A DNA stretch of 8,343 nucleotides from Candidatus Zhuqueibacterota bacterium. GTDB lineage: Bacteria > BS750m-G25. Position 1 is the first letter of the stretch. The number at the start of each line of letters is the position of its first letter. Where the stretch lies: assembly GCA_016783505.1 (NCBI GenBank), contig JADHWK010000078.1, forward strand, positions 1-8,343, read 5' to 3'. The notes beneath the pieces were generated by a model that was given only the letters and a program-made list of their open reading frames with translations, searched no databases and was not told the origin of the DNA. Positions 6,152 to 6,472 of this stretch are shown here, in pieces. The position numbers were made by a program, and so were the translations under genes.

Positions 6152-6224
6152 AATGCCCGTGATTATGGAGGAGCTTTTGGGGTTGTATCAGAACTATCGT
6201 ATCGGTCAGGTCAGTCAGGCGCCC

Positions 6225-6394
6225 GGGCCTGTGGCACAACTCTGAAATCGCTGTTTCCCCCTTTGCGTGATAATAAATTATCACGCCATCTCAAAGAAAG
6301 TCCATTAAAATGGACTAATAACAGTATGTTTCAACATACTTTCTTAGAGTTAGCATAGGAATTTATTCCTATGCGATAGTTCTGCAACAGGCCC
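6225..6394. mobile_element. MITE-like 170-base element with four nested perfect hairpins
   Basis: The ends are inverted repeats: GGGCCTGTGGCACAACT (6225-6241) against the complement of AGTTCTGCAACAGGCCC (6378-6394), matching at 15 of 17. GCCC lies directly outside each end (6221-6224 and 6395-6398), a possible 4-base target duplication. Inside are four perfect palindromes, each with two unpaired central bases: 6265-6286 (10-bp arms), 6299-6316 (8), 6323-6340 (8) and 6353-6374 (10). Spacers are 12, 6 and 12. CTCAAAGAAAG (6290-6300) and CTTTCTTAGAG (6339-6349) pair with one mismatch and enclose the middle two. All 36 hairpin pairs are Watson-Crick with no G-U, which suits a DNA-level structure, though a structured RNA is possible. 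There is no open frame, so any transposase would act in trans. The GGCCTGTTGCA-like end recalls IS5- and IS1182-type ends, unverified. It fills the gap between converging genes, where an insertion is harmless. Confidence 0.7.
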
Positions 6395-6472
6395 GCCCGA
6401 CTGATTAGAATAGATTCCTATATTGTCTTTAAAGCGGACCACTGTAGAAAAACACATTTTAAGTACCCAAAA

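Follow-up and report, generated by a model that had tools for sequence, protein, structure and literature searches.

A four-hairpin array of a Candidatus Zhuqueibacterota bacterium is probably an ORF-less IS200-like miniature nested in other mobile repeats

The PATEs of Haloquadratum walsbyi are short, ORF-less and palindrome-bearing ends of IS605-type transposons, some of which arose when the core was deleted; their palindromes serve as insertion sites for other mobile repeats, and they also contain nested MITEs (PMC3119063). The TnpA_Y1 proteins of subclass 1.2 carry the motif Y---Q--HH and are generally without terminal secondary structures or IS properties, and REPs and REPINs follow the rule that a GTAG or GTGG tetranucleotide lies 0-2 nt 5' of the stem (PMC6006769). 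In the TIRYT/TIRtrons, Y1 genes lie between double palindromes, some of which recur in the genome, and the insertion of REPs into dispersed palindromes is known as well (PMC3733652), as are insertion sequences landing in REP repeats (PMC1525189).

The locus described here lies in a window of 8,343 nt (the whole stretch of DNA that was analysed) from a Candidatus Zhuqueibacterota bacterium, the assembly of which comprises 2.5 Mb in 89 contigs and is about 60% complete. Statements on the whole genome are based on pattern, blastn and covariance-model searches. The element sits between two convergent genes, and its features are listed in Table 1. At its center are four palindromes of 22, 18, 18 and 22 nt, separated by spacers of 12, 6 and 12 nt, with two-base centres and a total of 36 pairs with 0 mismatches; coordinates and arms are as given in a preliminary description of this DNA. 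An extra stem around the inner hairpin pair, also claimed there, is indeed formed by the spacers CTCAAAGAA/TTCTTAGAG, but it is imperfect. Four hairpins with arms of at least 8 and a loop of 2 fall within 110 nt of the window, compared to a mean of 0.17 per window in 1000 dinucleotide shuffles of the whole window, and even two such hairpins within 130 nt were seen in 0 of the 1000. The fold energy of the single strand is -45.2 kcal/mol, compared to -16.7 ± 3.1 in shuffles (z -9.3), and the cluster is beyond chance, as had been asserted. With a length of 110 nt, the array is below the size needed to encode a transposase, and no ORF of 60 aa is present within 6225-6394.

Table 1. Features of the nested element, in window positions.
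Feature	Position	Strand	Sequence or remark
Outer half-unit of 20-bp repeat, nested copy	6202..6210	+	TCGGTCAGG
Left part of interrupted 20-bp repeat	6211..6224	+	TCAGTCAGGC + GCCC; GCCC 6221-6224 is the left target duplication
Left terminal inverted repeat	6225..6241	+	GGGCCTGTGGCACAACT
Four-hairpin array	6265..6374	.	Matched by covariance model without family A, E 1.6e-10
Outer hairpin 1	6265..6286	.	GCGTGATAAT.aa.ATTATCACGC
Inner hairpin 2	6299..6316	.	AGTCCATT.aa.AATGGACT
Inner hairpin 3	6323..6340	.	AGTATGTT.tc.AACATACT
Outer hairpin 4	6353..6374	.	GCATAGGAAT.tt.ATTCCTATGC; same palindrome type also outside TIR elements
Right terminal inverted repeat	6378..6394	+	AGTTCTGCAACAGGCCC
Right target duplication and remainder of 20-bp repeat	6395..6404	+	GCCC (6395-6398) + GACTGA

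The array is framed by 17-base ends that were described as terminal inverted repeats (TIRs). They are inverted but not perfect, pairing at 15 of the 17 positions. The inverted match extends to 6215/6404 (27 nt, 81%), owing to the palindromic nature of the flanking 20-bp repeat. A 190-nt query gave 42 matches in the host genome, about ten of them over most of its length and many others comprising the ends only, and 27 copies have paired TIRs, around at least four types of interior (A, which is that of the window, B, C and D). All 27 lie within the 20-bp repeat TCNGTCAGGC-GCCN'-GACTGA, in either orientation. The bases GCCN' flank the TIR element on both sides, with identical tetramers in 22 of the 27 copies and six kinds of tetramer among the duplications (GCCC, GCCT, GGGC, ACCT, TCCC and AGGC). 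Because different copies carry different tetramers, the duplicated bases depend on the target variant, and the repeated tetramer is a 4-bp target duplication. With paired TIRs, many copies, no coding capacity and a target duplication of constant length, the frame is a MITE, one of the options that the preliminary description had put forward.

Among all matches to the 17-bp TIRs in the host assembly (60% complete), none belongs to a long (autonomous) element. A single DDE_Tnp_1 gene was found in the host, and it encodes an IS701-family transposase of 410 aa (L142:730-1962, C88 of the host assembly G000). Target duplications of IS701 are 4 bp long; nevertheless, L142 was rejected as the DDE mobiliser of the TIR frame, as its flanks carry no 17-bp TIR. 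In viral contigs, the TIR pattern has 7 single sites, one of them with a second site on the same strand, and 0 inverted pairs. Just upstream of the element, positions 6179-6205 of the window hold a decayed, right-TIR-like sequence with 78% complementarity to 6368-6394, perhaps the remnant of an older copy. In addition, the stretch at about 978-1325 of the window holds several short CCCGAAnnTTCGGG-type palindromes, the module of hairpin 2 in most type A copies.

The target of the MITE, TCNGTCAGGCGCCN'GACTGA, is a dispersed palindromic repeat with about 70-115 sites in the host (for example L041-L080 in G000); the pattern TNNGTCAGGNGCCNNACTGA has 70 zero-mismatch matches in the host, compared to 0 in the control. 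Positions 3 and 14 of this 20-mer covary though they are not palindrome partners: in a hand tally of pattern matches, they are complementary in 54 of 67 entries against a shuffle expectation of 27 of 67, and 0 of 20,000 shuffles are as high as 54. Comparison of the two loci L072 and L107 reveals a single 20-mer insertion, precisely 20 bp long, which separates an A from a T and has caused no duplication. Nested, onion-like copies (L062, L069 and L074) and tandem half-units (L053 and L055) were also observed.

Neither the element nor the 20-mer was found in the 115 other genomes searched, all of them unrelated beyond the domain level, and the 20-mer pattern has no match in viral contigs. The Neomarinimicrobiota MAG NIOZ-UU84 has 22 matches to the 20-mer with up to 1 mismatch, and MAGs of Zixibacteria, Caldithrix and Desulfobacterales contain it in few copies. 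Together with variants such as TCCGTCAGGAGCCGGACAGG, the 20-mer occurs beside similar flanks in NIOZ-UU84 and at one or two places in a Desulfobacterales MAG from that series (L099-L102, L104 and L096), which could reflect shared mobile DNA or a misbinned contig. Apart from a 3-mismatch site more than 1 kb from the ORF in L107, no 20-mer lies beside the three host Y1 transposase loci; the Y1 genes are therefore not evident mobilisers of the 20-mer.

The hairpin array is a dispersed family separate from the TIR frame. In the host genome, the palindrome of hairpin 4 recurs at about 14 places outside TIR elements, and about eight places (C5, C33, C59, C89, C2, C3, C65 and C35) have the 22-18-18-22 plan with no TIRs around it, either intact or in partial decay. 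A covariance model was built from eight arrays, five TIR-less and three of type B, whereas family A was left out because a MAFFT alignment of all arrays misplaced its hairpin 2. The model recovers the type A array of the window (Table 1) and further arrays at C2 and C35, and finds no match in the eight loci of named MAGs that bear the 20-mer. In an alignment of about 22 arrays, nearly all entered on both strands and thus with rows that are not independent, 95.0% of the cells are paired, compared to 28.6-45.9% with the partners slid; 30 of 32 pairs are changed on both sides, and the two-sided changed cells number 320, compared to 115 in shuffles. An element family had been expected to show many copies with variable hairpin sequence and kept pairing, which is what these alignments contain, and the array is not single-copy. 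The flanks of the TIR-less arrays have no common boundary, and no filled/empty pair of an array insertion was seen. Compact 22-14-22 arrays, in which two 22-nt hairpins surround a single CCCGAAACTTCGGG palindrome, occur in L128 (about 297-351) and L133 (about 301-356).

The separate distribution of the array bears on the explanation that all 170 bp form a single, ordinary DDE-type MITE, of which the hairpins are an incidental interior spread by the TIR transposase alone. This explanation accommodates the 27 copies with TIRs and 4-bp duplications, as well as the one frame common to interiors of different types. However, it does not account for the 22-18-18-22 plan outside the TIRs, and pairing kept through two-sided changes is not expected of an incidental interior; we thus regard it as unlikely. 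A still less likely explanation is a structured or cis-acting RNA with a host function, such as mRNA stability or attenuation, that was spread as a MITE. The strong fold, the pairing kept between families and the location between convergent genes agree with an RNA, but an Rfam search of the window gave no match at the gathering score, and the two strands of the array reach nearly equal scores with the covariance model, 74.8 and 72.5 bits, as DNA palindromes should. Copies also decay after insertion without compensation: single copies within family A bear uncompensated changes. The pairing is thus kept along source lineages and not after insertion, which fits a requirement of movement better than a host function. 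The structured RNA that the preliminary description had allowed for is unneeded, with no support beyond foldability.

The host assembly has three Y1 transposase genes (L106, L107 and L108), all IS200-like, and two of them, L107 and L106, stand between mirrored hairpins of the array's design. L107 (C32) shows the order CCCACGAATttATTCGTGGG - AACCGTTttAACGGTT - ORF - AACCGATgaATCGGTT - ACCCACGATTaaAATCGTGGGT, that is, outer-inner-ORF-inner-outer, with perfect arms and two-base centres in an element of about 570 nt. In L106 (C89), these hairpin types recur to the left and right of the gene, plus one further array per flank. At L108, the palindromes are like those of interior type C and the clean four-hairpin plan is missing. 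Directly repeated four-hairpin stretches on both sides of the Y1 gene in L106:1067-1880 (G000 C89) resemble junctions between a right and a left end. The proteins share the HUH and Y---Q--HH motifs (YIRKQEEHH, YIQNQDEHH and YVKNQRKHH). Against the IS200/IS605 model NF033573, with a cut-off of 55, L106 (68.6 bits) and L108 (71.5 bits) pass, and L107 (53.1 bits) lies just under; against the REP transposase (RAYT) model NF047646, with a cut-off of 80, they reach only 22.6-26.7 bits.

The L107 element recurs elsewhere in the genome as a second copy, L072:148-389 (G000 C51), which aligns with L107 at 81% over 99 nt and 77% over 234 nt on the two sides, including flanks beyond the outer hairpins. 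About 340 nt of the ORF that L107 has between its inner hairpins, or two thirds, are missing from L072, which keeps all four hairpins, one inner hairpin being split by the inserted 20-mer. Judged by this alignment, L072 is a direct intermediate from a full Y1 element to a four-hairpin array. The Y1 elements L106, L107 and L072 have the same architecture as the window array and different stem sequences; no Y1 gene between hairpins of the GGATAG/GCATAG type, the sequence of the window array, was found in the host assembly, which is about 60% complete.

The association of hairpins with Y1 genes was also seen at 22 Y1 loci for which sufficient flanking sequence was available, 21 of them from other genomes; these are a convenience set of best matches and not a survey. 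Hairpin density at these loci is 4.1/kb beside the Y1 genes compared to 0.68/kb farther out, a difference of about sixfold. Perfect hairpins on both sides are found in only 8 of the 22, host L107 being one, and the mirrored four-hairpin plan in 3 of the 21 loci from other genomes (L171, L186 and L194). Within an element, these three included, the gaps between outer and inner hairpins are nearly equal on the left and the right.

The same loci weigh on a third explanation, in which the array is a mosaic of independent REP-like palindromes inserting beside or into each other, with no tie to the ends of Y1 elements. Palindromic modules and nested insertions do abound in the genome, and the compact 22-14-22 versions in L128 and L133 could be read in this way. 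Yet a mosaic would hardly yield the fixed 22-18-18-22 order, in which the outer-inner gaps are of near-equal length, or the recurrence of this plan at Y1 genes, or an intermediate such as L072 with its deleted ORF, and we consider it about as unlikely as the RNA.

Altogether, we think it probable that the array is an ORF-less, PATE-like miniature derived from an IS200-like element whose ends each bear two hairpins, and that it was captured by a DDE-type MITE with a REP-like repeat as its target. Speaking against this reading, neither a Y1 gene between GGATAG/GCATAG-type hairpins nor a long element with the TIRs was found in the assembly of about 60% completeness, L108 is irregular, perfect hairpins occur on both sides of only 8 of 22 Y1 loci, no filled/empty pair of an array was seen, and family A bears uncompensated changes. 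Two options of the preliminary description, a MITE and a hairpin substrate of a REP-like transposase, thereby hold as nested layers, the latter insofar as the array appears to be built like a Y1-transposase element; both the TIR-less arrays and the 20-bp repeat used as target had been missed. In the mechanism that we infer, which extends to the transposition chemistry, the transposase for each layer and any current activity, the innermost layer would consist of the two double-hairpin ends (22 + 18 and 18 + 22) of an ORF-less IS200-like Y1 (HUH) element. The array might fold on the single-stranded lagging template in replication, where a Y1 transposase acting in trans would recognise the hairpins and excise a single-stranded circle, which would insert elsewhere without target duplication; the exact ends of the array are likewise putative. 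The middle layer is the MITE frame with its 17-bp inverted ends, which a putative DDE-type transposase would insert with a 4-bp target duplication, and the outer layer is the target of this MITE, the dispersed 20-bp REP-like palindrome, which in turn inserts into other palindromes.

More tentatively, and with somewhat less confidence than an even chance would warrant, we propose that TnpA_Y1 subclass 1.2, up to now described as an orphan class that generally lacks transposon ends, is a transposon family with mirrored ends of outer and inner perfect hairpins, in which loss of the ORF gives rise to independent elements of four hairpins; these would spread in several phyla and end up inside other mobile repeats. 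If true, this would provide candidate ends and substrates for a class of single-strand transposases that lacks an assigned function, and the activity of the transposase would be directly testable, by binding and cutting, on a four-hairpin DNA strand. It would also place a Haloquadratum-like nested economy of palindromic mobile repeats, with miniature elements, small repeats landing in hairpins and a MITE landing in small repeats, in a bacterium whose phylum is not otherwise represented in the searched collection.

Compared to the known systems, the array shares with REP/REPIN and RAYT the pairing of short palindromes with a Y1 transposase family, REPINs being ORF-less doublets. However, none of the window's four stems is adjoined by GTAG or GTGG, the hairpins are four instead of two, and the host proteins score below the REP transposase cut-off. 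The TIRYT/TIRtrons also have double palindromes flanking Y1 genes, but their proteins belong mostly to subclass 2.1 with extra domains (PMC6006769). As in insertion sequences that target REPs, a mobile element sits at a fixed place in a dispersed palindrome, whereas the visitor here is a MITE and the target is the 20-mer. The host Y1 proteins share HUH and Y---Q--HH with TnpA_Y1 subclass 1.2 (IS200/IS605), yet, unlike this subclass as described, their genes stand between paired hairpin ends, and a copy with a deletion exists. In the open-licence literature, we found no description of a mirrored double-hairpin end for this Y1 subclass or of a four-hairpin ORF-less form. By analogy, the closest precedent is the PATEs of Haloquadratum, which resemble the present system in their ORF-less palindromic ends, in the small repeats in hairpins and in the nested MITE; they differ in their archaeal host, whereas the array described here has two perfect hairpins per end in a mirror-symmetric plan.
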